Positions 5,408-24,986 of a stretch of DNA of 43,484 bases are shown one piece after another. The position numbers and the translations under genes were made by a program. Each line of letters opens with the position of its first letter. Position 1 is the stretch's first letter. Source of the stretch: Pseudolabrys sp. (GTDB lineage: Bacteria > Pseudomonadota > Alphaproteobacteria > Rhizobiales > Xanthobacteraceae); the NCBI GenBank assembly GCA_025451355.1, contig JANWKN010000109.1, positions 1 to 43,484 on the forward strand, written 5' to 3'. The notes under the pieces were generated by a model. It worked only from the letters and a program-made list of their open reading frames with translations, was not told the DNA's origin and searched no databases.

Positions 5408-5818
5408 CTAACTGGCGGGGATAACCGCTGTGCCCTCAATCTCGACTTTTGCACCTGACTCGAGCAGCCCTGCGACGACAATCAAAGACATCGCCGGAAA
5501 ATGGCGACCGATGACCCTGCGATAGGCTTCGCCGATCTCCTTTTGCCGCGCCACATAAGTCGCCTTGTCGGTGACAAACCATGTCAATCGGGTGAGATGC
5601 CGAGGCTCGCCCCCGGCCTCTGCCAACACTGCAACAATATTCGAAAGCGCGCGCTCAGCTTGGCCAACGAAATCGTCACTGACCAACTGACAGCGCTCAT
5701 TCCAGCCAATCTGCCCGGCGATGAACACCTGGCGTCCCTCGGCAGCCACTCCATTGGAATAGCCTTTCGGAAGCATCCAGTTCTTCGGCTGTAAAAATTC
5801 AAACGTGTTCTTGCTCAT
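5408..5818 (-). CDS. RidA/YjgF/YER057c family protein
   Basis: 'GRQVFIAGQIGWN...QAERALSNIVAVLAEAGGEPRHLTRLTWFVTDK...KVEIEGTAVIPAS' matches RidA; start overlaps the upstream ligase stop (ATGA, 5815-5818). Confidence 0.85.
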   Translation of the reverse strand: MSKNTFEFLQPKNWMLPKGYSNGVAAEGRQVFIAGQIGWNERCQLVSDDFVGQAERALSNIVAVLAEAGGEPRHLTRLTWFVTDKATYVARQKEIGEAYRRVIGRHFPAMSLIVVAGLLESGAKVEIEGTAVIPAS

Positions 5819-7470
5819 GACTGACCGTGCTGCCGCAATTTGAATCTTTGGATTTTGCCTGTCTGGGTCTTCGGCAAAGCTTCGACAAACCTGACCGCGC
5901 GCGGATACTTATAAGGCGCGATAACTGCCTTAACATGATCCTGCAACCGCTTCATACAGGCCGTATCACCTTCGACACCGGCCTTGAGCACGACAAAAGC
6001 CGTCACAATCTGCCCGCGTTCGATATCCGGCGCGCCAATCACAGCGCATTCCCCCACGTCGGCGTGTGAGAGCAGCGCGCTCTCGACTTCCGGCCCCGCT
6101 ATGTTGTAGCCGGCCGAAACAATCATATCGTCCGTGCGCGCTGCAAAGTGGAAGTGGCCTTCCTCGTCCTGAAAATAGGCGTCGCCGGTCAAATTCCAGC
6201 CGTCGCAGACATAAGACTTCTGCCGCATGTCAGCGAGGTATCGGCATCCTGTCGGGCCGCGCACCGCCAATCGACCGACGGTTCCGGGCTTTGCCGTTTT
6301 CATGTCGGCGTCGACGATTCTCGCCTCATATCCGGTAACCGGACGGCCGGTGACTCCTGCGTGGGCATCGTCAACCCGATTCGAAATGAAGATATGCAGC
6401 AGTTCGGTCGTCCCGATGCCGTCCAGAATTGATTTACCCGTTTTGCGTCGCCAGTCCTCGAAGACGGGGCCCGGCAGCGTCTCTCCGGCGGACACCGCGA
6501 TGCGCAAAGACGAGAGATCTGCACCCTGCTCCATCGCCGCCAGCATGGCGCGATAGGCAGTCGGCGCCGTGAAGCAGATCGTTGCCTTATAGTTCTCGAT
6601 GATCTGAATCATGTTCGCGGGCGAAGCATTTTCTAGCAGCGTCGCTGTCGCGCCAAAGCGCAACGGAAAAATCGCAAGGCCGCCCAGGCCGAACGTGAAG
6701 GCAAGCGGCGGTGAGCCGACAAACACGTCGTCGGGTGTCACTTTCAGGACTTCCCGTGCGTAACCATCCGCAATGATCAGCAGGTCGCGATGGAAATGCA
6801 TCGTCGCTTTCGGTTCTCCGGTCGTTCCTGATGTGAAACCGAGCAGGGCCACATCGTCGCGCCCGGTGGGCACCGGATCGAACTTGACCGGCTTGTCGAG
6901 GGCGATGCGGTCGAGCTCGGCGTCGTGGTTGGAGGTTCCATCAAATCCGACCACCTGCTTGAGGAATCGGCTGTCCTTGGCGCATGCAATAATCTCGTCC
7001 ACAATACGCATGTCTGTCAGCGCAAGACTGATTTGCGCCTTGTCGACGATTTTGGTGAGTTCGCCTGCGCGCAGCATCGGCATCGTATTGACGACCACCG
7101 CACCGGCTTTCGTCGCCGCAAGCCAGGCCGCGACAAGCGCGGGATTGTTGCCAGAGCGGATCAAGATGCGGTTGCCCGGTTTGATACCGTAGTTCTCGAC
7201 CAACGCATGGGCGACGCGGTTCGACCAGTCGGTCAGCTCCTTGTAAGTGCGCCGCCGGCCGTTTCCGATCAGTGCAATGCGATCCCCGAACCCGCGCTCG
7301 ACCATTCGGTCAGTCAGCTCAACGGCTGCGTTGAGGCACTCCGGATATTGAAATTCCGGCCGATCGAGCGGCAAATCTGGCCATTGATCGAATGGCGGCA
7401 GGTTGTCGCGGGTAAACGTATCGACATGCGCCGACGGACCAAGCTGCGGCTGTCTGTTTGCCGTGCCCAT
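5815..7470 (-). CDS. abmG: 2-aminobenzoate/benzoate-type CoA ligase (AMP-dependent synthetase family)
   Basis: 'LLGFTSGTTGEPKATMHFHRD' AMP-binding motif, C-terminal 'PKTQTGKIQRFKLR'; operon context with an aminobenzoyl-CoA monooxygenase/reductase-like gene. Confidence 0.82.
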   Translation of the reverse strand: MGTANRQPQLGPSAHVDTFTRDNLPPFDQWPDLPLDRPEFQYPECLNAAVELTDRMVERGFGDRIALIGNGRRRTYKELTDWSNRVAHALVENYGIKPGNRILIRSGNNPALVAAWLAATKAGAVVVNTMPMLRAGELTKIVDKAQISLALTDMRIVDEIIACAKDSRFLKQVVGFDGTSNHDAELDRIALDKPVKFDPVPTGRDDVALLGFTSGTTGEPKATMHFHRDLLIIADGYAREVLKVTPDDVFVGSPPLAFTFGLGGLAIFPLRFGATATLLENASPANMIQIIENYKATICFTAPTAYRAMLAAMEQGADLSSLRIAVSAGETLPGPVFEDWRRKTGKSILDGIGTTELLHIFISNRVDDAHAGVTGRPVTGYEARIVDADMKTAKPGTVGRLAVRGPTGCRYLADMRQKSYVCDGWNLTGDAYFQDEEGHFHFAARTDDMIVSAGYNIAGPEVESALLSHADVGECAVIGAPDIERGQIVTAFVVLKAGVEGDTACMKRLQDHVKAVIAPYKYPRAVRFVEALPKTQTGKIQRFKLRQHGQS

Positions 7471-7471
7471 C

Positions 7472-8635
7472 TCAGTGCTCCAATGCGGAAAGGACGGATC
7501 GCGCAATAACGATTTTCTGAACGTCGGACGCGCCTTCGTAAATGCGTAGCGCGCGGATTTCCCGATAGAGAGTTTCGACGGGATGGCAGGAACGCACCCC
7601 ATCTCCGCCGTGGATCTGCACCGCCGTGTCAATCACACGTTGCGCGGCTTCTGTCGCAAACAGTTTGGCCATGGCTGCCTCCCGGGTCACGCGTGCAGCA
7701 CCCATGTCCTTGGCCCAGGCGGCGCGATAGATCAGCAGTGCGGCAGCATCGATCTCCAGCGCCATGTCCGCGATATGTCCTTGCACCATCTGCAGGTCGG
7801 CAAGCGGCGCGCCAAACAAGTGGCGGTCGGTCGCTCGTTTCAGCGTCTCGTCCAGTGCACGGCGTGCAAAGCCAAGCGCCGCAGCCCCGACCGACGTTCG
7901 AAACACATCAAGCGTCGCCATCGCGATCTTAAAACCATCCCCGGCGCGGCCAACAAGAGCGGAGGCTGGAACCCGGCACGCTTCGAAACGAAGGCGCGCC
8001 AGCGGATGCGGCGCGATCACGTTCAAACGCTCGGCAATCGTCAGACCAGGATTGTCAGCCTCAATGACGAAAGTCGAAAGTCCGCGGGCGCCTGGTGCCT
8101 CGCCGGTACGCGCAAAAACAATATAGAAGTCGGCAATACCGCCATTCGAAATCCAGGTCTTTTCACCGTCGAGAACGAAATTAGCTCCATCGCGGCTGGC
8201 AACGGTGGCGATGTTTGCGACATCCGAACCGGACGCGGGCTCCGACAGCGCAAACGCGGCTATCGCCTTGCCGGAGCGGGTCTTCGGTAACCACGCCTCG
8301 CGTTGCTCCGCGTTGCCGAACAACGACAAGGGACCGGCGCCCAGGCCCTGCATGGCGAAAGCGAAATCAGCAAGGCCCGCGTGCCGCGCCAATGTTTCCC
8401 TGATCAGCGCCAGCGTGCGCACATCGATCCGCTCGGCGTCGCCCTCACCCGGAGCGGTGAATTTAAGCCAACCATCTCGCCCCAGCGCGGCGACGAGGCT
8501 ACGACAGGTTTGATCAGTGTCGTGATGGTCAATGCCCGAAAGGTTTTGCACGGACCAAGCCTCCAGTCGCTCGGCCAGTTCGCGATGACGCGGCTCGAAA
8601 AAGGGCCAGTGCAGAAAACTTTTGTCGCTCATCAC
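7472..8635 (-). CDS. Acyl-CoA dehydrogenase
   Basis: '[18 protein letters not shown]', '[20 protein letters not shown]', '[40 protein letters not shown]'. Confidence 0.92.
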
Positions 8636-9445
8636 TCAGTTTCCGGCAAAGCGCGGGGTGTCTTTTGCAATGAAGGCTTCGTATGCGCGACGGAAATCGG
8701 CGGTTTGCATGCAAATCGCCTGTGCCTGTGCTTCCGCCTCAATCGCCTGGTCAAGCGTCATGGACCATTCCTGGCCAAGCATAGTTTTAGTCATCATGTG
8801 CGCGAAAACCGGGCCTTGAGTGAGCTTCTGCGCGAATGCCAGCGCTTCCATTTCGAGCTTGTCGGTTGCAACAAGCCGATTGAAAAAACCCCATCGCTCG
8901 CCCTCTTCCGCACTCATCGTGCGGCCGGTGAACAGCAATTCCGATGCACGGCCCTGCCCAATCACGCGTGGCAGCATGGCACACGCGCCCATGTCGCAGC
9001 CTGCAAGTCCCACACGTGTAAACAGAAACGCAGTTTTCGCCTGCGGCGAGCCCAACCGCATATCGCAGAACAGCGCGATCATCGCGCCGGCGCCAACGCA
9101 GACACCGTCGACGGCGGCGATAATGGGCTGCGGGCAGGCGCGCATAGCTTTCACAAGATCGCCGGTCATGCGCGTGAACGCGAGCAAGCCTTTCATGTCC
9201 CGATCGAGCAGCGGACCGATAATATCGCGCACGTCACCGCCTGAGCAGAAATTTCCTCCATTCGAGCCAAAAACCACGGCCTTGACGTCATCAGCGGAGG
9301 TGAGCTGGTGAAAGGTGTCGCGCAGCTCGACATAGGAATCTAAAGTAATAGGGTTCTTTCGCTCGCTGCCCTTGAGCGTGATAACCGCCACGTCATCCTT
9401 GCAATGCCAGTTGAAATGCGCGGGCTTGAAGTCCTTCATTTTCAT
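8636..9445 (-). CDS. Enoyl-CoA hydratase/isomerase (crotonase) family
   Basis: '[14 protein letters not shown]', '[26 protein letters not shown]'. Confidence 0.88.
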
Positions 9446-9933
9446 GGTCTGGCCTCCCGGGTACGCACGCGCCTGACAAGTTCGTCGAGCTGACTGATGA
9501 TCGACTCAGCCTCCATGGCGCCGAATTCCTCAAGCATTTCGTCGATCCACCCTTCATGAGCTTTCGCGATGACCGAAAATTGCGAGGCACCCTTGGGGGT
9601 CAGACGGACAATAAAGGACCGACGATCGCTGGCTGGCGCCTGTCGCAGCACCAGCTTCTCGGCGACGAGCCGATCGATGATGCCAGTCACATTGCCGTTG
9701 GACACCATCAACTGCCGCGACAGCTCGGTCATTGTCATACCCTCTTCGCTACGAGCGAGCGCGGCCATTACGTCGAACTGCGGTAAAGTGATCGAAAATC
9801 TTGTGCGCAATCGCTCCCGCAATTGGGCCTCGATCGCGCGTGACGAACGCAACAACCTCAGCCAGAGCCGCAGGCGTTGCTTGCTGATTGGAAGCGGTGC
9901 GCTGCGGACGCGCGCTTTGTTCGCGGCGTTCAT
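9442..9933 (-). CDS. MarR family transcriptional regulator
   Basis: '[66 protein letters not shown]'. Confidence 0.9.
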
Positions 9934-10697
9934 TGCGAACCTCCGGTTACCTCGATTGTCTGCCCGTTCACGGAGCCGGCGGACGGCAAGCAGAGCCGTA
10001 GCACCGCCAACGCCACTTCCTCCGGCTTAACCAGTCGGCCAGACGGATTGTCTTTGGCAAGCATGGCGCGCGCTTCGTTGGCCGATCGGCCCGTTTTGGC
10101 AGAAATTTTCTCAGCCGCAGCATCGATGAGCGGCGTGTCCGTGTAGCCCGGACACACAGCGTTGACCGTAACTCCGGTTGACTCGAGTTCCAGACTGAGA
10201 GCGCGGGTTAAGCCGACGACGCCGTGCTTGGCGGCACAATATGCCGCGACGTAGGGATATCCCTTCAACCCTGCCGTCGACGCGATAAAGACAATCCGGC
10301 GCGTTCCCTCGAATTTGCGGGTGACATCGGGCAAAGCTGCCTTCACCGTAAGGAACGCGCCGGTGAGGTTCACGTCGATCATGCTTTGCCAGTGAGAAAG
10401 TTCCATCTTTTCGACGGCAGCACTCGCGGCAGTTCCAGCGTTGGCGACGACGATATCGATCGGGCCGTGAGCCTCGCAAGCCGCACGCGCCATGGCTGCG
10501 CAGTCGGATTCCTTCGTCACGTCAGCGACAATCGCCGTCGCTTTGGCGAGGCTCGCTGCCACGTTCTCTAACGGCGCCTGGCGTCTGCCTGCCAGCGAAA
10601 CTGCGGCGCCTTCGCCTGCCAGCGCACGCGCGATAGCCGCGCCTATGCCGGTGCCGCCGCCGGTGATCAGTGCGTGTCGATTGTCGAGCACCCCCAT
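9930..10697 (-). CDS. Short-chain dehydrogenase/reductase (probable hydroxyacyl-CoA dehydrogenase role)
   Basis: 'ALITGGGTGIGAAIARAL', 'YCAAKHG' YxxxK motif, 'VNAVCPGYTDTPL'; start overlaps the upstream stop (TGATG). Confidence 0.9.
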   Translation of the reverse strand: MGVLDNRHALITGGGTGIGAAIARALAGEGAAVSLAGRRQAPLENVAASLAKATAIVADVTKESDCAAMARAACEAHGPIDIVVANAGTAASAAVEKMELSHWQSMIDVNLTGAFLTVKAALPDVTRKFEGTRRIVFIASTAGLKGYPYVAAYCAAKHGVVGLTRALSLELESTGVTVNAVCPGYTDTPLIDAAAEKISAKTGRSANEARAMLAKDNPSGRLVKPEEVALAVLRLCLPSAGSVNGQTIEVTGGSQ

Positions 10698-12988
10698 CAG
10701 ACTTTCCCCGTCATTATGTCGGGGCGTGACTTGAGGCGGTAGAGTTGATCGCGGCCGGGCCAATAGGGCTTCGGCCATCTCACGCCGTCGTAGCGAAGGT
10801 CAGCCGCCGCATGCAGCGTCCAGTACGGATCCGACAGATGTGGGCGAGCCAGGCAGACAAGGTCAGCTCGCCCCGCCATCAGGATCGAATTAACATGATC
10901 CGGCTCATAGATGTTGCCGACGGCGAGAGTTGCGACGCCAGCCTCATTGCGAATTCGGTCAGAGAAAGGCGTCTGAAACATTCGGCCGTAGACCGGACGT
11001 GCGTGCGTGGATGTTTGGCCGGCCGAGACATCGATGAGGTCGACGCCCGCCTCGCTGAGTAATCGCGCGATCTCGACGGCGTCCTGCGGCCGCACGCCCT
11101 CTGGGGTAACCCAATCGTGAGCCGAAATGCGTACGGAGATCGGTTTTTCGTCCGGCCACACTTTTCGCACCGCACGAAACACTTCAAGCGGGAACCGCAT
11201 TCGATTCTCCAGCGGCCCACCGTATTCATCGGTGCGTTTGTTGGTCAGCGGGGTAATAAAGGACGACATCAAGTAGCCGTGCGCGTAATGCAGCTCGAGC
11301 CAGTCGAAACCGATACGGGCCGCCATCTCCGCCGAGCGCACAAACTCGTCGCGGATCTGGTCCATGTCAGCGCGCGCCATCTCACGCGGCGTCTGGTTTT
11401 GCGGGCTCCAAGCCACGGCCGAGGGTGCGAGTACCGGCCAATTTCCGGTCGCGAGCGGTGCGTCGCTCTCTTCCCACCCGAGCTGGGTCGAGCCTTTCGC
11501 TCCTGAATGGCCAAGCTGGATTGCGATCTTGGCGTCAGTCTCGGTATGGACAAATTCGACTATGCGTTGCCAGGCGTTGAGGTGTTCCGAGGCGTAAAGG
11601 CCTGTACATCCGGGCGAGATGCGGCCTTCCGGCGAAACGCAGGTCATTTCCGTAAACACCAGCCCGGCGCCGCCTTTGGCTCGTTCGGCGTAGTGCACGA
11701 AGTGCCATTCGTTGGGTGTGCCGTCTTTGGCGCGATATTGCGCCATCGGTGAAACGCACACCCTGTTTGCAAGCTCGAGGCCGCGAACCCGAAACGGCAC
11801 AAACATCGGCGGCCGCGCCGAATTTGGTATCTGCCCTGTCGCCTTTTGCTCGAACCATTTCTCCGCGCCAGAAAGCCACTGCGGATCTCGCTGGCGCAGG
11901 TTCTCGTGACTAATTCGTTGCGAACGCGTGAGCAGTGAATAGTTGAACTGCACAGGATCGAGATCGAAATACCGCTCGACGTCCTCGAACCATTCGGTCG
12001 AATTGCGCGCGGCATTCTGTAGTCGCAATACTTCAAGCCGCCGTTCTTCTTCGTAGCGCCTAAAGGCCGAGGTAATATCGGGCTCGCTGTCGAGATAGTT
12101 CGCCAGCGCTATCGCGCTTTCCATGGCTAGTTTCGATCCGGAGCCGACCGAGAAATGAGCGGTGGCGGCGGCATCGCCCAGCAGGACGATGTTCTCGTGA
12201 CTCCAGCGTTCGCAGAGAACGCGATTGAAATTGAGCCAAGCCGAACCGCGCAAGTGGCGCGCATTCGACATCAGTCTGTGACCACCGAGATTGCGAGCGA
12301 AGATTTTCTCGCAGGCCGCGATTGTTTCGTCGATGTTCATGCGATCGAAGCCGAGGCGCCGCCATGTCTCTTCAGAACACTCGACAATGAAGGTCGCCGT
12401 GTCGGCGTCGAATTGATAGGCGTGCACCCAAATCCAGCCGTGCTCAGTCTCTTCGAAGATAAAGGTGAATGCGTCGTCGAATTTCTGATGCGTTCCGAGC
12501 CAGATGTATTTGCACGCACGAACGTCGATGTCAGGCTTGAAGGCGTCGGCGTGTGCTGCGCGGACACGAGAATTCACGCCGTCAGCACCAACAACGATGT
12601 CGAAGTCTTTGTAGCTGTCGACCGGTGCCACTTCCGTCTCAAACCTGATCTCCACGCCGAGAGAACGTGCACGGTCCTGCAGAATATTGAGAAGCCGCTT
12701 GCGGCCGATGCCGCTGAAGCCGTGGCCTCCTGACCGCATCACCTTGCCTCGATAGTGAACGGCTATGTCGTCCCAATAGACAAAAGAGTCGCGAATTGCT
12801 TTTGAGGAAACGGGATCGTTAATGTGAAGATTGCCAAGTGTCTCGTCGGACAAAACGACACCCCAGCCAAAGGTGTCGTTCGGTTTGTTGCGTTCAACAA
12901 CGAGGACGTCGTGCGAGGCGTCACGTAACTTGAGCGAGATCGCGAAGTTTAGCCCACCCGGGCCGCCCCCCAGAACTGCCGCACGCAT
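10697..12988 (-). CDS. Bifunctional FAD monooxygenase (salicylyl-CoA 5-hydroxylase-like)/old-yellow-enzyme fusion; probable 2-aminobenzoyl-CoA monooxygenase/reductase
   Basis: N-terminal '[21 protein letters not shown]' with '[28 protein letters not shown]'; C-terminal OYE half '[61 protein letters not shown]'; ATG at 12988 with AAAGGAG. Confidence 0.9.
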
Positions 12989-13036
12989 GCGCCGGCTCCT
13001 TTCGCGGTGACCTGAGAAGAATGCCGCAGAAGGCAA

Positions 13037-13161: not shown

Positions 13162-14229
13162 TTAGTGCGACGACTTTTTCCAGATTCCGCGCTTGTGCAT
13201 CAAGGCCACCTGTTTGTCGATCACATCGCGTTTGTAATCGGCATGCTTGGGCGGGACTTTTTTCAGATAGCGGTTCTTCGGATAGATCGGCTTTTCATAG
13301 ATGATCTGTGCAAGTTCCGACCGGATGTCTTTCATCCAGTTCGTGACTTGCGCCGACTCGCGGTGATGACGCAGCGCTTCGATATTGATGACACCCGAAA
13401 CGAACGTTGAGCCGTTGGTATCGCGTTGCTTGCCAACCAGCTGACCGCGGTAGTCTACAATCATGGACTGGCCGCCGCCGGCATCTATGCCCACCGGATG
13501 ATCGGCATCGAGATGATAACTGCCGATATTGGGAGCCACGATATACATGTTGTTTTCCAAAGCGCGCGCGCGATTGGAGATTTCGAAAATGTCGTTTTCG
13601 GTGAACGGCGCGGGCATCGAGGCGCGATACACCACCTCAGCCCCATTCATCGCCAGACCTCGACCATTTTCCGGATAGTTCCCTTCCATCGCCATCATGA
13701 TGCCGAGACGTCCGATTTTGGTGTCGGCGACGGGCCAGAACGCATCGAGCGTGCGTCCGTATTTTTTTATCCACCAGTCGTAAAGATCGTGCGGGGACAC
13801 TGAACGTTCGACCGGCAACAATGCGCTGAGCTTATAATGTTTTAGAATAATCTTGCCGTCCGGATCGACGATGAACCCGATGTTGAAGAAACGGTCCTTC
13901 CAGTCTTTGTGGCGCGCCTTGGCCTGCGCCATGATGTAGACGTTCCACTGCCGCGCGAGCTTGCCAATCTCGTCGGTCTCGGGGCCCGGAACATCGATGC
14001 AGCAAGTCCGGGCGTAGTCGGCATGGTCCACGTCGAGCACTTCGTCATTGAATCCCATCAGCGCGCCTTCGGGGATGGCGAGCAGACGGACCGGAATATC
14101 GAGATTGGACAGCCAAAATGCCGCCTTGGTGAGACCCTTGAGGTGCTCGATATTGTGCTTTATTTCCTCGCGCCGGCGAATGCCCCAGAAGCTGGGGATG
14201 AGGCCGACGGCGTTATACGGCTCGATCAT
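13162..14229 (-). CDS. Carbon-nitrogen hydrolase (nitrilase) superfamily protein, nucleophile Cys replaced by Ala
   Basis: 'LLAIPEGALMGF' (Glu region), 'IILKHYKLS' (Lys region), 'KIGRLGIMMAMEGNYPENGRGLAMNGAEVVYRA' (nucleophile region without Cys), 'NRARALENNMYIVAPN'. Confidence 0.78.
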   Translation of the reverse strand: MIEPYNAVGLIPSFWGIRRREEIKHNIEHLKGLTKAAFWLSNLDIPVRLLAIPEGALMGFNDEVLDVDHADYARTCCIDVPGPETDEIGKLARQWNVYIMAQAKARHKDWKDRFFNIGFIVDPDGKIILKHYKLSALLPVERSVSPHDLYDWWIKKYGRTLDAFWPVADTKIGRLGIMMAMEGNYPENGRGLAMNGAEVVYRASMPAPFTENDIFEISNRARALENNMYIVAPNIGSYHLDADHPVGIDAGGGQSMIVDYRGQLVGKQRDTNGSTFVSGVINIEALRHHRESAQVTNWMKDIRSELAQIIYEKPIYPKNRYLKKVPPKHADYKRDVIDKQVALMHKRGIWKKSSH

Positions 14230-14280: not shown

Positions 14281-15645
14281 TCACGCCGCGACGCTCGGCA
14301 GGCCGGCCAGCGCCATGGCAAGTTCTTTATCATCGTAGTCCTGGTCGACCAATTTGCCTTCGAAGTAGTTGATGTAGGCCTGCATGTCGAAATGGCCGTG
14401 GCCGGAGAGATTGAAGAGGATGGTCTCTGTCTTGCCCTCCTTCTTGCAGCGCAATGCCTCATCGATGGCACACCGCACCGCATGGCTGGCTTCGGGTGCC
14501 GGTACGATGCCTTCACAGCGCGCGAATTCTACGCCGGCTTCGAAACATGCCACCTGATGATAAGCACGCGCTTCGATGAGCCCGAGTTGATAGACGTGAG
14601 ACACGAGCGGCGACATGCCGTGGTAACGCAGACCGCCGGCGTGGAAGCCCGGCGGGATAAATGTCGAGCCGAGTGTGTGCATCTTCACCAGCGGCGTGAG
14701 ATGCGCGGTGTCACCGAAATCATAGGCGTATTTGCCGCGCGTCAGTGACGGACAGGCTGCCGGTTCGACAGCGATAACGCGCCGCTTGCGTCCCCCGCGC
14801 AAATGCAGGCCCAAAAACGGAAATGCGAGACCGGCGAAGTTCGAGCCACCACCCGTACATCCAATGACTATATCGGGGTCATCGCCGGCCACTTCGAACT
14901 GCTTGATGGTCTCCTCTCCCACGATGGTCTGATGCAACAGCACGTGATTGAGCACTGAGCCGAGCGAATATTTCAGCTCCGGGTCCTTCGCCGCCATCTC
15001 CACCGCCTCTGAAATCGCGATGCCGAGCGAGCCCGGACTGTTGGGATGCTGCTTAAGGATTGAGCGACCGCTTTCCGTCTCGTTCGACGGCGACGCAATG
15101 CAGCGCGCGCCGTAGGTTTCCATCAGCGCTCGCCGGTAGGGCTTCTGATCGTACGACACGCGCACCTGGAACACGGTCACGTCGATGCCGAACAGAGCAC
15201 CCGCGAAGGCGAGCGAAGAACCCCACTGCCCGGCCCCGGTCTCTGTGCTCAGACGTTTCACGCCCGCCTGTTTGTTGTACCAAGCCTGTGCCACCGCCGT
15301 GTTCGGCTTGTGCGAGCCGGCTGGCGAGACACCTTCATATTTGAAGTAGATCTTCGCCGGCGTGCCGAGCTTCTGCTCAAGACGCCGCGCGCGGATCAAC
15401 GGGGCCGGCCGCCACATCCGGTAGACGTCACGGATGGGCTGCGGAATATCGAGGTAGCGCTCGCCGGTCACCTCCTGGAGAATGAGCTCCATGGGGAACA
15501 GCGGCTCGAGGTCGGCGGGACCGATTGGCTGCTTGGTTCCCGGATGCAGGACGGGCGGCAATGGCTTGGGGAGGTCAGCCGTCAGGTTGTACCAAGTTTT
15601 AGGAATATCCTTTTCATCCAGGACGAATTTGACCTGATCACTCAC
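14281..15645 (-). CDS. trpB2: TrpB2-type tryptophan synthase beta-like PLP enzyme
   Basis: '[68 protein letters not shown]', '[11 protein letters not shown]'; GTG start at 15645 with AGGAG upstream. Confidence 0.87.
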
Positions 15646-15828
15646 GCAACTCTCCTCTTGCCCGCACCACGCGACAGAACGCGGCGAAACATTACCCGAG
15701 GACGCCAACGATGTGAACTCGCCGGCACCCAGCGACATTTCATGCAGATCGCCAGTTGCCTTCGGCTCGCTCCGCAGGTGAAAATGGGCGTACGATATGC
15801 GCTAATTGATCACCCGCAGGAGGGGGAC

Positions 15829-16995
15829 ATGCATAAGAAGCTCGCGCTGATCGGCGCCATCATGGGACTTTCGGCTACGGCGGCCGGCGCGCAGGACAAG
15901 GTCAAAGTAGGCGTCATTGCGACGCTTTCCGGCCCACCGGCGGTGCTCGGTCAGCAACTGCGCAACGGATTCCAGCTCGCCGTCAAGAATCTTGGCGGTA
16001 AGGTCGGTGGTCGCGAAGTGGAGGTTGTCGTCGAAGACGACGAGCTTAAGCCCGACGTCGCGGTCAATAAGGCGAAGGCATTGGTCGATCGCACGAAGGT
16101 GGATTTCGTCGTTGGCCCGATTTTTTCCAACATGCTGATCGCGATAATGAAGCCGGTGACCGACGCGGGTGTCATCCTGATCAGCCCGAATGCGGGCACC
16201 TCCAACTTCGCCGGGAAAGAGTGCAATCCTAATTTCTTTGTCACCTCGTACCAGAACGATCAAAACCACGAGGTCATGGGAAAGTACGCTCAGGACGCCG
16301 CGATGAAAAAGGTGTTCCTGATGGCGCCGAATTACCAAGCGGGCAAAGATGCCATTGCCGGATTCAAGCGCTATTTCAAAGGTGAGATTGCCGACGAAGT
16401 CTACGTTCCGCTTGGCCAGCTCGACTATTCGGCCGAGCTGACAAAGATTGCCGCGGCTTCGCCGGACGGGATCTTTGTTTTCTTGCCAGGTGGCATGGGC
16501 GTGAATTTCGTCAAGCAGTTCCGGCAGGCTGGCCTCGCGGATAAGATCAAGTTCCTTTCCGCATTCACGGTCGATGAGTCGACCCTACCCGCGCAGAAAG
16601 AAGCTGCGCTCGGATTTTTCGGCGGCGCCAACTGGGCACCCAATCTCGACAACCCCCAGAACAAGAAATTCGTTGCCGAATACGAGAAAGAGTACAACGC
16701 TGTTCCGGCAACCTACGCTTTCCAGGCCTACGATGCAGCGTTGCTGATCGACGGTGCACTGAAGCTGACCAAGGGAAATACGTCGGATAAAGACGCGTTG
16801 CGTGCGGCGTTGATGAAGGCGAACTTCACGTCGCTACGAGGTCCTTTCAAGTTCAACACCAATCACTATCCGATCCAGGACTTCTACCAGGTAAAAGTAG
16901 CGCAGCGCGCGGACGGCAAGTTTGAAACCCAGATCGATAAGAAGGTATTCGCCGGCTACTCCGATCCGTACGCTAAAGATTGTCCGATGAAGTGA
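15829..16995 (+). CDS. LIV-type ABC transporter periplasmic substrate-binding protein
   Basis: Signal peptide 'MHKKLALIGAIMGLSATAAGAQ' then 'VKVGVIATLSGPPAVLGQQLRNGFQLAVKNLGGKVGGREVEVVVEDDELKPDVAVNKAKALVD'; ATG at 15829 with AGGAGGGGG. Confidence 0.92.
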   Translation: MHKKLALIGAIMGLSATAAGAQDKVKVGVIATLSGPPAVLGQQLRNGFQLAVKNLGGKVGGREVEVVVEDDELKPDVAVNKAKALVDRTKVDFVVGPIFSNMLIAIMKPVTDAGVILISPNAGTSNFAGKECNPNFFVTSYQNDQNHEVMGKYAQDAAMKKVFLMAPNYQAGKDAIAGFKRYFKGEIADEVYVPLGQLDYSAELTKIAAASPDGIFVFLPGGMGVNFVKQFRQAGLADKIKFLSAFTVDESTLPAQKEAALGFFGGANWAPNLDNPQNKKFVAEYEKEYNAVPATYAFQAYDAALLIDGALKLTKGNTSDKDALRAALMKANFTSLRGPFKFNTNHYPIQDFYQVKVAQRADGKFETQIDKKVFAGYSDPYAKDCPMK

Positions 16996-17017: not shown

Positions 17018-17941
17018 ATGTCCACGGGGCTCGTTGTCGTCCAGATTCTGAACGGGCTCCAGTTCGGCGTCCTGCTCTTTTTGATCGCGGCCGGGCTTAC
17101 GCTCGTGTTCGGGGTGATGGATTTCATCAATCTCGCCCACGGTGTCCAGTACATGTTGGGCGCCTATCTCGCCGTCGCGTTCTATGCGCTTACAAGCAAT
17201 TTCTTCATTGCCTTGTTGCTGGCACTCGCGGCGGCTCTGGTCTTTGGGCTTCTGCTCGAATTCCTGGTGTTCCGCCATCTTTACGATCGTGATCATCTCG
17301 AGCAGGTGATCGCGACTTTTGGCATCATCATTTTTCTCAATCAGGCAGTAAAAACCGTCTGGGGCGCCGCGCCTCTGACGCTGCCCATTCCCGAGATCTT
17401 TTCCGGGTCGATCATCCTGATGCCCGGCCTGCTCTATCCCATCTGGAGGCTGGTCATCATCGCTTCGGGACTAGCGATCGGCCTGCTCCTTTACGTATTG
17501 GTGGGTCATACCCGCGTCGGCATGTTGGTTCGCGCGGGCGCTACCAATGCGCGAATGGTATCCGCCCTTGGTGTCGATATTCGCCGGCTTTTCATGATCG
17601 TATTTGGCTTCGGCACCATGCTCGCCGCTTTCGCCGGCGCGATGATTGCGCCGATCCTGTCGGTCGAGCCGGGCATGGGTGACACCGTTCTCATCCTTGC
17701 CTTCGTTGTCATCGTCATCGGCGGCATCGGCTCAATGCGCGGCGCTTTCCTGGCCGCGCTCTTGATAGGTCTCGTCGACACGCTGGGGCGCTCCTTCGCG
17801 ATCGACATCCTGCGGCTTGTGATGCCGCCCTCACCGGCCCGCACCGTCGGCCCGGCCATAGCGTCCATGCTGATTTATGTGCTGATGGCACTGGTGCTCT
17901 ATTTTCGGCCCTCCGGCCTGTTCCCAGCACGGGGGCGTTGA
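17018..17941 (+). CDS. LIV-type ABC transporter permease (LivH-like)
   Basis: 'QILNGLQFGVLLFLIAAGLTLVFGVMDFINLAHGVQYMLGAYLAV'. Confidence 0.92.
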   Translation: MSTGLVVVQILNGLQFGVLLFLIAAGLTLVFGVMDFINLAHGVQYMLGAYLAVAFYALTSNFFIALLLALAAALVFGLLLEFLVFRHLYDRDHLEQVIATFGIIIFLNQAVKTVWGAAPLTLPIPEIFSGSIILMPGLLYPIWRLVIIASGLAIGLLLYVLVGHTRVGMLVRAGATNARMVSALGVDIRRLFMIVFGFGTMLAAFAGAMIAPILSVEPGMGDTVLILAFVVIVIGGIGSMRGAFLAALLIGLVDTLGRSFAIDILRLVMPPSPARTVGPAIASMLIYVLMALVLYFRPSGLFPARGR

Positions 17942-18933
17942 TGACCCAGACGCTTGCCGCTTCCAGCGTCCTGCCTTCGCAACAAACCGATCGCGCGAAC
18001 GCATTACCCGTAGCGATTTTTCTGATACTCGCATTGGTTCCGTTCGGCGCGGCGTTTGGCCCGGAAAGCTATGTGCTGGGGCTATTTACCCGTGTGATGG
18101 TGTTTGCGGTCGCCGCACTCGCGCTTGATTTCATCTGCGGTTACGGCGGGCTAGTCTCATTCGGACACGCCGCCTTCGTCGGCATTGGCGCCTACGCTGT
18201 GGGAATTATCGGCGCGCATGGCGTCACGGAGATGCTTGTATCTCTTCCGGTCGCGCTATTGGCCGGCGCGATCTTCGCTTACCTGACTGGAACGGTATGT
18301 CTGCGGACGAAGAGCGTGTACTTCATCATGATCACCCTGGCTTTCGGGCAAATGGCGTATTTTATTGCAGGCTCGCTCGCGCCCTACGGCGGCGATGACG
18401 GTCTCACCGTCAGACTACGCAGCACGCTTCTCGGCTTCCCGATTCTGCAAAACGATCGCACATTTTATTATTTTGTCCTTCTCTCGTTACTCGTCGTCTA
18501 TTTCGCGTTCCGCACCATCGTATATTCGCGCTTCGGGCGGGTCTTGCGCGGGGCGCGCGAAAACGCGACACGGATGGCTACGCTCGGGTTCGACGTTTTC
18601 AGCTTTCAGCGCGTTGGATATGTGATCGCCGGCGCGGTCGGCGGACTCTCCGGCTTCCTTCTCGCCAACGCGACGGAGTTCGTAAGCCCCGCCTATATGT
18701 CGTGGCAGCGGTCCGGCGAACTGATCATCATGATCCTGCTCGGCGGGCTCGGTACACTGCACGGCGCTATTGTTGGCGCCGCGGCCTACCTGCTGATTGA
18801 GGAGACACTCGGTGGCATTACCGAGCAGTGGAAATTGATATTCGGCCCACTCTTGGTGCTCATCGTTCTGTTTGCGCGCGGCGGATTGCTTGGACTGGTC
18901 GACAGAATTCGTGGAAGGCCTGGCCGTGGCTGA
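17941..18933 (+). CDS. LIV-type ABC transporter permease (LivM-like)
   Basis: 'ALALDFICGYGGLVSFGHAAFVGIGAYAVGI', 'GRVLRGARENATRMATLGFDVF'. Confidence 0.92.
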   Translation: MTQTLAASSVLPSQQTDRANALPVAIFLILALVPFGAAFGPESYVLGLFTRVMVFAVAALALDFICGYGGLVSFGHAAFVGIGAYAVGIIGAHGVTEMLVSLPVALLAGAIFAYLTGTVCLRTKSVYFIMITLAFGQMAYFIAGSLAPYGGDDGLTVRLRSTLLGFPILQNDRTFYYFVLLSLLVVYFAFRTIVYSRFGRVLRGARENATRMATLGFDVFSFQRVGYVIAGAVGGLSGFLLANATEFVSPAYMSWQRSGELIIMILLGGLGTLHGAIVGAAAYLLIEETLGGITEQWKLIFGPLLVLIVLFARGGLLGLVDRIRGRPGRG

Positions 18934-19678
18934 TCCCGTTCTCCAGCTGAACGATCTGCACAAGAACTTCGGCGGACTCGTCGTAACCGACGGCGTGACG
19001 CTCGATATTGGATTCGGCGAGCTGCACGCGGTGATCGGGCCGAACGGTGCCGGAAAAACCACGCTGATAAATCAGATTTCCGGTCTGCTCGCGCCTACGG
19101 CCGGGACAATCAACTTTAGGGGCACTGACGTCACCGATTTGCCCGCGGACAAGCGCGCGAAGCTCGGGCTGGCGCGATCGTTTCAGATCACTTCGGTGCT
19201 GCCCCGATTTTCTGCCCTGGAAAACGTCGCTTTGGCTGTGCAGGCGCGCAATCAAACGAGCTATCGATTTTTCGGGCGTGCCGACCACGAACAACCTGTC
19301 AACGACGCGGCAAACGCCGCGCTTGCCGAGGTCGGATTGGCCGACCGCGGACAAACCCTCGCGGCTCATCTCTCGCACGGCGAGAAGCGGTCGCTCGAAC
19401 TTGCAATCGCCATCGCCATGGAGCCGAAGTTGCTACTGCTCGACGAACCGATGGCCGGCACCGGACACGAAGAAAGCGCTCGTTTGGTCAGCGTTCTGAA
19501 GCGGCTGAAAGGCCGTTTCTCGATGCTGCTGGTTGAGCACGACATGACTGCAGTCTTTGCGTTGGCTGACCGGATTTCCGTTCTTACCTATGGCCGTATC
19601 CTTGCGAGCGGTACACCCGACGCCGTGCGCGCAGATCCGAGGGTGATCGCCGCCTACCTTGGTGAGGAGATGGAATAG
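18911..19678 (+). CDS. LIV-type ABC transporter ATP-binding protein (LivG-like)
   Basis: Walker A 'GPNGAGKTT', signature 'LSHGEKRSLELAIAIA', Walker B 'LLLLDEP'; GTG start likely, overlaps LivM. Confidence 0.92.
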   Translation: MEGLAVADPVLQLNDLHKNFGGLVVTDGVTLDIGFGELHAVIGPNGAGKTTLINQISGLLAPTAGTINFRGTDVTDLPADKRAKLGLARSFQITSVLPRFSALENVALAVQARNQTSYRFFGRADHEQPVNDAANAALAEVGLADRGQTLAAHLSHGEKRSLELAIAIAMEPKLLLLDEPMAGTGHEESARLVSVLKRLKGRFSMLLVEHDMTAVFALADRISVLTYGRILASGTPDAVRADPRVIAAYLGEEME

Positions 19679-19680
19679 CC

Positions 19681-20379
19681 ATGCTCTCGGTCGAGCGGCT
19701 CGCAGCATCTTACGGACCGGCACAGGTGCTGTTCGACATAAGCTTTTCGGTCGACGCAGGCGAAGTCGTGACCCTGATCGGCCGCAACGGCATGGGCAAG
19801 ACGACCACCATTTTCGCGCTCATGGGTTTGGTGCCACCCGAAGGTGGAACTGCCACGTTTGACGGGCAATCGCTCGTCGGACTACCGCCGTTTCGTATTG
19901 CGCAGGCAGGACTCGGGCTGGTGCCCGAAGGACGTCAGATATTCCCGACATTGACGGTCGAGGAGAACCTCGTCGCCACCGGGGCGGCGCGCTTTGGCAC
20001 CAAGCAATGGACACTCGAGCGCGTCTACGACTTTTTCCCCGCGCTCGCCGAACGACGCAGCCACATGGGCAATGAACTCTCCGGCGGCGAACAACAGATG
20101 TTGGCGATCGGCCGCGCCCTGATGACCAATCCAAAGCTTCTGATCCTCGACGAGGCGACTGAAGGACTGGCACCGAAAATCCGGACTGAGATTTGGCAAT
20201 GCCTCACGCGGCTTAAACAGGAAGGCCAGGCGATCCTGATTGTCGACAAGCACCTCGAGGTGTTGCTGCGCTTTGCCGACCGCCATGTTGTGATCGAAAA
20301 AGGTCACGTGGTCTGGACTGGTACGTCTGCAGGGCTTGCCGCCGATCCCAGTATTCGCAAGCGCTATCTTCAGGTGTGA
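19681..20379 (+). CDS. LIV-type ABC transporter ATP-binding protein (LivF-like)
   Basis: Walker A 'GRNGMGKTT', 'LSGGEQQMLAIGRALM', 'LLILDEATEGLAP'. Confidence 0.92.
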   Translation: MLSVERLAASYGPAQVLFDISFSVDAGEVVTLIGRNGMGKTTTIFALMGLVPPEGGTATFDGQSLVGLPPFRIAQAGLGLVPEGRQIFPTLTVEENLVATGAARFGTKQWTLERVYDFFPALAERRSHMGNELSGGEQQMLAIGRALMTNPKLLILDEATEGLAPKIRTEIWQCLTRLKQEGQAILIVDKHLEVLLRFADRHVVIEKGHVVWTGTSAGLAADPSIRKRYLQV

Positions 20380-22043
20380 GCCGCCTGACTAGGAAAGTGC
20401 TCGGCATGCCAATCCGCCTCGAGATTCGGATTGATCTTGGCGTCGATCAGGAAGACGCCAGGCGCTCCCTCTCCAACCCAGGTCCGCACCGCGTCCAGAT
20501 CGGCAAGCGTCCGCACAGTCGCCCCGCGCGCGCCGAAACCGCGGGCTATGGCGGCGAAATCGGTTTCCGGAAACTGGACGATATCGACCGAATAACCCTG
20601 CCGCCGGAAGAAATGCACTTCGGCGGCATAAGAGCTGTCATTGTAGATCAAGATACACATCCGCAGTCGGAGACGAATTGCGGTTTCAAGGTCGGCGATG
20701 GACATCAGGAAGCCGCCGTCGCCCGCGCCAAGCACCGCGAGCTTGCCCGGATTAGCGACGGCAAGACCGATCGCGGAGGCAAGCCCGAGTCCCACCGACT
20801 GGAACGAATGGCTGAGACAGGACGCCTTCGGATTGGGAACGCGAAGATAGCGCGGAACCCATCCGCAGAAATGTCCGGAGTCAGAAGCGACCACGCGATC
20901 CCCGGGCAGAATTTCGTCTACAGCTTTGCTCACCGTGCGAGGGTCGATGTACTGCGCGCTCGATTCCTCGGGATACGGACTATGATGATTGTCGCCTGAG
21001 CGAATACGCTGGCGCGTGCGATCGTCGCGACGGCCCGCGCCCGACGCGCCACGCCGGTCAAGCTCCGCCAGTAAGGCTTCTGCTGTGGCCTTTGCGTCAC
21101 CCAGTACGGCAAACTGCACCGGCATCTGATAGCCGAGCTTCGGCGCTTCTATATCGATCTGGGCGACAGTTGCGCCACGCGCGATCAATTTGCCTTTCTT
21201 GGTCGTCCATTGGGTGAAGCTCACGCCAAAACCAAGAATAAAATCGCTTTCGGAAATCAGCTCGTCTGCGACCGGCGACGAAAAGCCGCCGCTGATTCCG
21301 ACCGACCAAGGATTGTCGGCAAAAAGGCCGTGACCGCAGATCGATGTTGCCAGCAGCGCGCCGAGCTGGTCGGCCAGCGCGATCAGCGGCTTTTCGGCGT
21401 CAGACACCACGGCGCCACGGCCCGCCAGAATGAGCGGACGCTTCGCACGCCACATCGCTTCCACGAGCCGGCGGATATCGTTTTGATCCGGCTGCAGCCG
21501 ACCCGGCATCGGATCCAGTTCAATGGGCTCATTCGAGCCGTTGACCGTTGCGTCCTGCACGTCGAGTGGCAAACTCAATACAACTGTCTGACGATCTCGC
21601 ATGGCCCGCGTAACCGCGCGCAGCAGGTCGCTCCGCGCCGATTGCGGCGTATAGGTACGCTCGGAAATGGCTCCGACCGATCGCACGAGTTCGGCTTGTT
21701 CGAAATAGAAATTCGATTTGACGTTGCCCGTTGGCACGTCTCCCGCAAGCACCAGCAGAGGGGTGCGACTTTTTGCAGCTTCGCCAATCCCAGTGATGGC
21801 ATTGGTGAGACCCGGGCCGGAGTGCACGCTGACGAGCGTCAGCTCACCGGTCGCCTTCGCATAGGCATCGGCCATACTCGCGGCATTTCCTTCATGCCGA
21901 GCGGAAATGAGTTCGACTCCGGCCGCGACGAGTCCGTGCGAAATCTTGAAATTGGCGGTCCCGAGCAATCCGAAACAGCGGCGCGCGCCGAGCGCCGCAA
22001 GATCCTTTGCCAGGACTTCCGCGACAGTTGAATCGTTACTCAA
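20370..22043 (-). CDS. Thiamine pyrophosphate-dependent enzyme (acetolactate synthase/2-oxoacid decarboxylase-like)
   Basis: N-terminal 'ISARHEGNAASMADAYAKATG' (catalytic Glu region), C-terminal TPP motif 'GAGDGGFLMSIADLETAIRLRLRMCILIYNDSSY'. Confidence 0.9.
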   Translation of the reverse strand: MSNDSTVAEVLAKDLAALGARRCFGLLGTANFKISHGLVAAGVELISARHEGNAASMADAYAKATGELTLVSVHSGPGLTNAITGIGEAAKSRTPLLVLAGDVPTGNVKSNFYFEQAELVRSVGAISERTYTPQSARSDLLRAVTRAMRDRQTVVLSLPLDVQDATVNGSNEPIELDPMPGRLQPDQNDIRRLVEAMWRAKRPLILAGRGAVVSDAEKPLIALADQLGALLATSICGHGLFADNPWSVGISGGFSSPVADELISESDFILGFGVSFTQWTTKKGKLIARGATVAQIDIEAPKLGYQMPVQFAVLGDAKATAEALLAELDRRGASGAGRRDDRTRQRIRSGDNHHSPYPEESSAQYIDPRTVSKAVDEILPGDRVVASDSGHFCGWVPRYLRVPNPKASCLSHSFQSVGLGLASAIGLAVANPGKLAVLGAGDGGFLMSIADLETAIRLRLRMCILIYNDSSYAAEVHFFRRQGYSVDIVQFPETDFAAIARGFGARGATVRTLADLDAVRTWVGEGAPGVFLIDAKINPNLEADWHAEHFPSQAAHT

Positions 22044-22062
22044 AGCGCACCAACGGCCTTGT

Positions 22063-22091
22063 TTGACTCCCTAACCTACTCATAACAATAT
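22063..22091 (+). promoter_or_regulatory. Weak sigma70-like promoter candidate for the TRAP operon: TTGACT-N17-CAATAT
   Basis: Read directly in the divergent intergenic region; good -35, poor -10. Confidence 0.22.
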
Positions 22092-22104
22092 AGGAAATAC
22101 ATGA

Positions 22105-23112
<1,008 letters not shown>

Positions 23113-23142
23113 TCACGCTCGCTTCGTTTCAGGTGACTCGGC

Positions 23143-23658
23143 ATGGCGCGACTATCCGAATGGTATGGGCGCTTGCTGGATGCACTAGTGTTCGCGGCGT
23201 GCCTGCTGCTGCTCCTTATGACCGTCATGATCGGCGCCGATGTCTTATCTCGTAACATTGGCGGCGGCGGCATACCAGTGAGCAACGAACTTTCCGAGGA
23301 CATCCTCTATTTGATGACGCTAATGGTTGCGCCATGGTTGCTGCGCCAGGGTCAGCACATTCGCGTCGATATCGTTCTCCACACCCTCCCCCTTCGTGTG
23401 GCGTGGCTGCTGGAGTGGTTCGGTGACATTGTCGGATTTTTCTGCTGTCTGTATTTCGTCTGGTATGGCTATCTCATCACGAAGGCGAGCTATCTCGCCG
23501 GTTCAGTCAATATCAAGACACTCATCACGCCGGAATGGTGGACGCTTGCGCCCCTGCCGGTCGGCTTCATGCTTCTCGCCATCGAATTCATTTTTCGCAT
23601 GCACCGACTATCCGTGGCCGAAATCGGCGTGCGGGATGACGCCGTTTCGGCAGCCTGA
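23143..23658 (+). CDS. TRAP transporter small permease (DctQ-like)
   Basis: Four hydrophobic segments; 'ADVLSRNIGGGGIPVSNELSEDILYLMTLMVAPWLLRQGQHIRVDI'. Confidence 0.88.
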   Translation: MARLSEWYGRLLDALVFAACLLLLLMTVMIGADVLSRNIGGGGIPVSNELSEDILYLMTLMVAPWLLRQGQHIRVDIVLHTLPLRVAWLLEWFGDIVGFFCCLYFVWYGYLITKASYLAGSVNIKTLITPEWWTLAPLPVGFMLLAIEFIFRMHRLSVAEIGVRDDAVSAA

Positions 23659-23672
23659 AGGCGTATTTGAGC

Positions 23673-24986
23673 ATGACCTGGCAGATGGCCTCGCTGCTGC
23701 TCCTCGGAGGCTCCACGGTGCTTTTGTTTGCCGGGATGCCGGTTGCGATTTCTTTCATCGCGATCAATCTGATCGGTGCGTTTCTCTTTCTCGGCGGCGA
23801 TGCCGGTCTGCATCAGGTCGCCCGCAACAGCGTTGCGGCCGCAATCAATTTCTCGCTGACACCCATCCCGCTTTTTATTCTGATGGGCGAAGTCCTTTTT
23901 CATACCGGACTCGCGCTAAAGGTCATCGATGGCGTCGAGCGGTTGATCCGCCAGGTGCCTGGTCGACTCGCCGTTGTTGCGGTCGTCGCAGGAACGGTTT
24001 TCTCGGCGATCTCGGGGTCGACTATTGCGACGACGGCGATGCTCGGTTCGTTGATGCTGCCGGTGATGCTGTCGCGCGGATACAATCCCGTCCTGGCAAC
24101 AGGCCCGATCATGGCGATCGGCGCTGTCGACATGCTTATCCCGCCCTCCGCCCTCACTGTTCTGCTCGGTAGCCTTTCAGGAATTTCGATCTCAAAACTA
24201 CTGATCGGCGGAGTCGTACCCGGTTTGATGTTGAGCATTGCCTTTGTCGGCTACATCATCGTTCGCGTGTCGACACGGCCCGAACTCGCCCCGCCCACGC
24301 CGATCGAGAGCAAATCCGGCTGGGCGCGCTACGAGTTGCTCTTTCTCTACGTCTTGCCGCTTGCATCCATCTTTGTCGTCGTGGTCGGCGCGATGTCGGC
24401 GGGGATTGCAACGCCGACTGAATCTGCGGCATTGGGCGCACTCGCAACGATGGCGCTGGCAGCCGCATACCGCGCGTTGAGTTTTGAGAATCTGATGCGA
24501 GCCCTACGCGGCACCGTCGCCATCTCCGGCATGATCCTGTTCATTATCCTCGGCGCCATCACCTTCTCGCAGATCCTCAGTTTCTCCGGCGCAACGCAAG
24601 GCATCGTCTCCGCCATTCTCGGACAAGGGCTCTCGACCCTGGCCATTCTGATCGGAATGATGATGCTGTTGATTTTTCTTGGAATTTTTGTCGATCAGGT
24701 CAGCATGATGCTGATCACGCTGCCGGTCTTTATGCCGATCGTTCAACGGCTGGAGATCGATCTGATCTGGTTCGGTGTGCTCTATCTGATCTGCATGCAG
24801 CTCGGCCTGCTGCTGCCGCCACACGGACTCCTCTTGATGACGATGAAGGGAGTAGCACCGCCGCAGGTGACAATGGGTCACATTTTTCGGGCGGTTGTGC
24901 CCTATATCACGATGAGTCTTGTGCTTCTGTTGATTATCATTTTATTTCCGGCAATCGCGACCTGGTTACCGAACATTCTGGGTTGA
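23673..24986 (+). CDS. TRAP transporter large permease (DctM-like)
   Basis: 'GEVLFHTGLALKVIDGVERLIRQVPGRLAVVAVVAGTVFSAISGSTIATTAMLGSLMLPVMLSRGY'. Confidence 0.93.
   Translation: MTWQMASLLLLGGSTVLLFAGMPVAISFIAINLIGAFLFLGGDAGLHQVARNSVAAAINFSLTPIPLFILMGEVLFHTGLALKVIDGVERLIRQVPGRLAVVAVVAGTVFSAISGSTIATTAMLGSLMLPVMLSRGYNPVLATGPIMAIGAVDMLIPPSALTVLLGSLSGISISKLLIGGVVPGLMLSIAFVGYIIVRVSTRPELAPPTPIESKSGWARYELLFLYVLPLASIFVVVVGAMSAGIATPTESAALGALATMALAAAYRALSFENLMRALRGTVAISGMILFIILGAITFSQILSFSGATQGIVSAILGQGLSTLAILIGMMMLLIFLGIFVDQVSMMLITLPVFMPIVQRLEIDLIWFGVLYLICMQLGLLLPPHGLLLMTMKGVAPPQVTMGHIFRAVVPYITMSLVLLLIIILFPAIATWLPNILG

Follow-up and report, generated by a model that had tools for sequence, protein, structure and literature searches.

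The nitrilase superfamily is defined by its catalytic Cys residue, and a Cys-to-Ala exchange in this fold is normally taken as the mark of a dead enzyme. The relatives that gave the best sequence and fold matches in the present analysis were the formamidase AmiF (H. pylori, 2dyu and 2e2k; B. cereus, 5g3o) and the amidase AmiE (2uxy, 2plq). Two described gene pairs are also comparable. The beta-cyanoalanine synthase and the NIT4-type nitrilase likewise put a PLP beta-synthase and a nitrilase-fold protein side by side, and the TrpA-TrpB tryptophan synthase is likewise a gene pair with a TrpB-family enzyme.

The gene analysed here, designated Nit-Ala, was found in a stretch of 43,484 nucleotides of Pseudolabrys sp. 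(the window) behind a gene for a TrpB-like enzyme. It keeps the Glu, Lys and second Glu of AmiF and AmiE in register, with the same Lys-Glu spacing of 8, but is only ~20% identical to them and has Ala in place of the nucleophile Cys166. The pair differs from beta-cyanoalanine synthase/NIT4 as its PLP enzyme is of the TrpB2 type, not a Cys/cyanoalanine synthase, and the catalytic Cys is absent; it differs from TrpA-TrpB in having a nitrilase fold instead of the TIM-barrel of TrpA. The genes of the pair and the active-site codons are as follows.

13162..14229, minus strand: Nit-Ala, Cys-less nitrilase/amidase-fold protein, 355 aa plus stop
14068..14070, minus strand: codon of Glu54, the general-base Glu of the superfamily (IPEGAL), invariant in 98/98 aligned proteins
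13831..13833, minus strand: codon of Lys133, the catalytic Lys of the superfamily (HYK), invariant in 98/98
13807..13809, minus strand: codon of Glu141, the second active-site Glu, 8 after the Lys, invariant in 98/98
13690..13692, minus strand: codon 180, GCG for Ala, at the nucleophile position of the superfamily, from the sequence and the alignment to AmiF Cys166
14281..15738, minus strand: TrpB-like PLP enzyme (TIGR01415 / PRK12391; TrpB2-type), from profile match, 51 bp upstream of Nit-Ala

The Nit-Ala reading frame has an ATG start with a good ribosome-binding site (gaagaggaaggccATG), is free of internal stops and begins 51 bp past the stop of the same-strand TrpB-like gene. The profile search assigned the protein to PF00795 CN_hydrolase with an E value of 1.5e-24 and 87.2 bits against a cut-off of 23.2. 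The AlphaFold2 model, computed with a 55-sequence alignment as input, had a mean pLDDT of 93.4, and the best Foldseek match was AmiF 2dyu (E 3.4e-24, probability 1.00), with AmiE-type amidases also at the top. Nit-Ala is thus predicted to have the formamidase/amidase fold, in accordance with the nitrilase-superfamily assignment made in the earlier note. Its scores for the formamidase NF009803 (52.8 bits, cut-off 406) and the aliphatic amidase NF009802 (42.2 bits, cut-off 427) were far below those required of an equivalog.

The segment corresponding to the nucleophile motif reads GIMMAMEGNYPENGRGLAMNGAEV and contains no Cys at all. In its sequence context (GIMMAMEGNYPE), Ala180 was aligned by HMMER to the solved formamidases, opposite Cys166 of H. 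pylori AmiF (2dyu) and the engineered Ser of 2e2k. The observations of the earlier note that Ala stands at the Cys position and that the Glu and Lys regions are retained were upheld, as was its implication that ordinary thiol chemistry is impossible. Among the residues expected of an active C-N hydrolase, Glu, Lys and the second Glu are present and the Cys nucleophile is replaced; judged by these residues, Nit-Ala would fall outside the active C-N hydrolases while belonging to the superfamily by fold and profile. The loss of the catalytic residue is conserved across orthologues, as is expected of a pseudoenzyme.

About 85 homologues were gathered by scanning genome contigs and the class to which the window belongs. 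Every intact homologue at least 57% identical that covers the nucleophile position has Ala there, while relatives at 38-48% identity from the same scans retain Cys. In the alignment of 98 proteins, position 180 is Ala in 74, Cys in 22 and Gly in 2, and all 74 members of the clade have Ala. Glu54, Lys133, Glu141, Asn116 and Arg190 are invariant in 98/98, Cys relatives included. The spacing between Lys133 and Glu141 is 8 in 74/74 Ala proteins and 7 in all 24 Cys/Gly relatives examined. The tree, computed after removal of column 180 and the Lys-Glu loop, put the Ala proteins on one side of a single branch (support 99/87), and the sister families keep Cys; its root was not inferred, so the statement that Cys was lost rests on the generality of Cys across the nitrilase superfamily. 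On this sequence evidence, Nit-Ala is placed in a Cys-to-Ala branch of the superfamily that is distinct and monophyletic.

The dN/dS values among near relatives ranged from 0.016 to 0.124 and were mostly 0.02-0.05; the Nit-Ala gene is under strong purifying selection. By record titles, the Ala clade spans eight bacterial phyla (Pseudomonadota, Binatota, Actinomycetota, Chloroflexota, Acidobacteriota, Bacillota, Thermodesulfobacteriota and Bacteroidota), and plasmid-borne members at 48-53% identity are found in haloarchaea. The group is further extended by homologues of Flammeovirga (39%) and Tsukamurella (72%). The clade-wide Ala, the invariant Glu/Lys/Glu, the single branch and the low dN/dS together indicate an old, selected trait. 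The explanation by an isolated mutation, a sequencing error or a decaying gene, which has nothing beyond the missing Cys in its favour, is therefore of negligible probability, as Ala in 74/74 homologues, the low dN/dS and the intact reading frames all stand against it. Neither a substitute Cys in the nucleophile position nor a close orthologue retaining Cys, the two outcomes named beforehand as contrary to the proposal, was found. Mycobacterium simulans has a second Nit-Ala copy (L064) with its reading frame disrupted around the motif; the same genome carries an intact one (L039) on a small contig.

The invariance of Glu and Lys, which in this superfamily activate the nucleophile and water, would also suit a protein that is still a hydrolase, acting through a migrated nucleophile or through water activated directly by Glu. 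This was judged unlikely. No clade-specific Ser, Thr or Cys occurs near position 180, which makes a migrated nucleophile improbable; the only clade-specific hydroxyl-bearing residues, Ser274 and Tyr321, are in the C-terminal part. A different Cys was considered as nucleophile and discarded, as the segment has none and Cys139 (LLPCE) is confined to some members, the window protein not among them. Cys mutants of nitrilase-family enzymes are also generally inactive, which counts against this reading.

The nearest Cys-bearing proteins are uncharacterised sister nitrilases 44-49% identical to Nit-Ala (for example L036:10270-11445, L072:2377-3507, L071 and L073-L075). They are equal in length and share the Glu/Lys/Glu and the flanking motifs, but have Cys at 180 and a Lys-Glu spacing of 7; some are flanked by genes for a CoA ligase, UbiD or an aldoxime dehydratase. 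Cys was lost a second time in a Gly variant of Chromatiales MAGs (L126:6175-7224 and L127:9177-10226; GSVGVEG), which keeps Glu/Lys/Glu, forms a tree branch separate from the Ala clade and adjoins UbiD-type decarboxylase genes. This Gly variant also lies near a Cys-bearing paralogue. Nit-Ala is usually a single copy in its genome, and among the Nit-Ala genomes searched a close Cys sister accompanies it only in G298 (L036) and G313 (L072), so an obligate hetero-oligomer with the Cys sister was rejected as a general model.

In locus L036, a haem-containing aldoxime dehydratase (PF13816; 9160-10236) stands between Nit-Ala and the Cys-bearing sister, and a further Nit6803-family nitrilase is close by, so that these genes may form an aldoxime-nitrile-acid cluster. 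A link of Nit-Ala to aldoxime dehydratase was nevertheless set aside: the gene adjoins Nit-Ala only in L036 and is also found beside the Cys sister in G319, which suggests that it probably belongs to the latter.

The TrpB-like gene was the most consistent neighbour of Nit-Ala, lying within a few kb at 30 of ~75 Ala loci (a hand count, window included). The true start of the window gene is probably near 15648. Its protein scored 637.3 bits against TIGR01415 (cut-off 518.85) and is accordingly a member of that family, and its best solved relative was 6hul_B, tryptophan synthase beta chain 1. The motifs GSHK (with the PLP-Lys), ETGAGQ and GGGSN were present in 37/37 aligned TrpB-like sequences. 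Canonical trpB was present in all 11 genomes checked, which indicates that the TrpB-like enzyme is accessory.

The pair occurs in at least five arrangements. TrpB precedes Nit in the Xanthobacteraceae relatives and again in Halieaceae; Nit precedes TrpB in Rhodoplanes, with a distinct TrpB of ~70% identity, and in two lineages of other Alphaproteobacteria; in Porticoccaceae an aldehyde dehydrogenase stands between Nit and TrpB. In some Alphaproteobacteria (L027 and L040), nothing but Nit-Ala and the TrpB-like gene separates adk from rpsM in the ribosomal-protein operon; at L082 the TrpB-like gene is followed by the same rpsM-type family, and at L032 Nit-Ala follows adk without a TrpB-like gene. 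This operon is an odd site for a metabolic gene pair.

Of 26 genomes searched in which Nit-Ala has no TrpB-like neighbour, 15 carry such a gene elsewhere, compared to 26/289 genomes of the window's class. In the remaining 11 of the 26, some of them incomplete, it was not found at E 1e-60, and the partnership is therefore not obligatory. The TrpB-like gene is also present in 4/8 genomes of the Cys sisters, which makes co-occurrence in a genome weaker evidence than adjacency.

These data bear on a serious rival, plausible though short of probable, in which Nit-Ala is a non-catalytic pseudoenzyme, that is, a nitrilase-fold ligand-binding or regulatory/scaffold protein, for instance one that serves the TrpB-like enzyme as its allosteric partner or senses an imported compound, with Glu-Lys-Glu holding the ligand. 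The nucleophile is absent in every clade member, Glu and Lys could equally be preserved as ligand contacts, and its occurrence with a PLP enzyme as a two-gene module resembles subunit pairing of the TrpA/TrpB type. A TrpB-family pseudoenzyme acts in plant indole formation, as stated in PMC12727527, and this was counted in the same direction. Against the pseudoenzyme reading, the other three catalytic residues show 100% invariance over two domains of life, which exceeds the usual needs of ligand binding. As a dedicated TrpB subunit the pseudoenzyme is weakened by two Acinetobacter genomes and M. simulans, in which no TrpB-like gene was found at E 1e-60; as a subunit of a Cys-bearing paralogue, by the rarity of genomes with both kinds.

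The pairing of a fold-type II PLP beta-synthase with a nitrilase fold also recalls the tandem of beta-cyanoalanine synthase and NIT4-type nitrilase. By this analogy the PLP enzyme would join a serine derivative to a small nucleophile, and Nit-Ala would hydrate or bind the product. The enzyme classes are the same, and NIT4-type nitrilases do have hydratase activity. Such a tandem is very unlikely here, as the annotated neighbourhood has no cyanide-related genes, the TrpB-like protein gives much stronger matches to tryptophan synthase beta chains than to cysteine synthases, and Nit-Ala is without the Cys that NIT4 uses.

The wider neighbourhood of the pair in the window comprises the following.

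15829..16995, plus strand: substrate-binding protein of a urea/branched-chain-amino-acid-type ABC importer (TIGR03407, 2.4e-32, below cut-off)
17018..20379, plus strand: other ABC importer genes, UrtB-, UrtC-, UrtD- and UrtE-like, from order and homology across loci
10697..13036, minus strand: bifunctional salicylyl-CoA 5-hydroxylase/oxidoreductase-type flavoenzyme (context; PRK08255, 1282 bits, cut-off 1078)
5815..10778, minus strand: aromatic acyl-CoA catabolism genes (context), from profile matches

The substrate-binding gene, with its start at 15829 inferred from the RBS, is divergent from the TrpB-like/Nit-Ala pair, and this arrangement recurs in L004, L011, L012, L016 and others. Several unrelated importers adjoin Nit-Ala across the loci and form the other recurrent neighbours. 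Besides this urea/Liv-type system they include a Liv-type ABC system beside a haloarchaeal copy (L144), an SsuA-type binding protein gene overlapping Nit-Ala in Nonomuraea, and, in marine Gammaproteobacteria, a TonB receptor with an aromatic-acid-type MFS. Genes for an M20 peptidase, AA_kinase and IlvD also adjoin it in the last group; from their families they look like arginine/valine biosynthesis and were not taken as parts of the system. Further along the window (20370-26459), TRAP transporter genes have two enzyme genes as neighbours, one for an amidohydrolase of the allantoinase/hydantoinase type and one for a thiamine-pyrophosphate enzyme resembling acetolactate synthase.

The salicylyl-CoA 5-hydroxylase-type gene lies downstream of Nit-Ala on the same strand. 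With the benzoate-CoA-ligase family, acyl-CoA dehydrogenase, enoyl-CoA hydratase, MarR regulator and SDR genes of 5815..10778 it makes up an aromatic acyl-CoA catabolic cluster (5815-13036), perhaps for an anthranilate- or salicylate-like acid. The same hydroxylase type occurs at the Tsukamurella plasmid locus, together with IorAB and a cyclase-family hydrolase. The latter two suggested auxin (iad) catabolism, which was retained merely as context: these genes are not recurrent at other Nit-Ala loci, and a word search of the main text of PMC12633357, PMC11630574 and PMC9613470 gave no mention of a nitrilase. A StyA-like flavoenzyme and a nitrilase are near Nit-Ala in L072, as the aldoxime dehydratase and nitrilases are in L036. 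Genes of aromatic/indolic catabolism are thus present at some loci, none recurrent enough for naming a substrate, and beyond the TrpB-like gene and the importers the neighbours are too heterogeneous to define a single one.

From the observed sequence, clade, selection and neighbourhood, we infer a chemistry in which Nit-Ala would be an enzyme that works on a small nitrogen-containing ligand without need of a thiol, and often in the pathway of the TrpB-like enzyme; this is the reading we favour, at somewhat less than even confidence. The missing nucleophile excludes the covalent mechanism of the family, and neither an acyl-enzyme nor a thioimidate would be formed. The pocket may still bind a small amide/nitrile-like or aromatic/indolic nitrogen compound, placed by Lys133 and both Glu residues, and non-covalent acid-base catalysis of the hydratase, lyase or isomerase type could follow. 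In many hosts Nit-Ala would share a pathway with the TrpB-like enzyme, for example by supplying its indole-like acceptor or by processing its beta-substituted amino-acid product. The usual reading of Cys-to-Ala as inactivating counts against catalysis, while the frozen Glu-Lys-Glu, the strong purifying selection and the usual single copy point to a working site and not a relic. As to the role, which the earlier note had left between pseudoenzyme, scaffold and other chemistry, the same clade-wide and selected features argue against decay and against an obligate Cys-paralogue partner; the sequence is compatible with either an enzyme or a binding protein. More tentatively, and rather doubtfully, Nit-Ala may represent a new functional class of thiol-free nitrilase-fold enzymes, combining Glu-Lys-Glu non-covalent chemistry with, in many bacteria, a mobile TrpB2-type two-gene pathway, and having single-gene relatives in haloarchaea.

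In a search covering part of the literature, no paper was found that describes a nitrilase clade without the Cys. Annotation pipelines still label the Ala-clade proteins as carbon-nitrogen hydrolases. A Cys-to-Ala replacement in two domains of life with the other catalytic residues frozen would mean either a new chemistry from an old active site or a deeply conserved pseudoenzyme with a binding role. These annotations would be corrected by either outcome, and the recurrent TrpB-like partner offers experiments on Nit-Ala a direct starting point.
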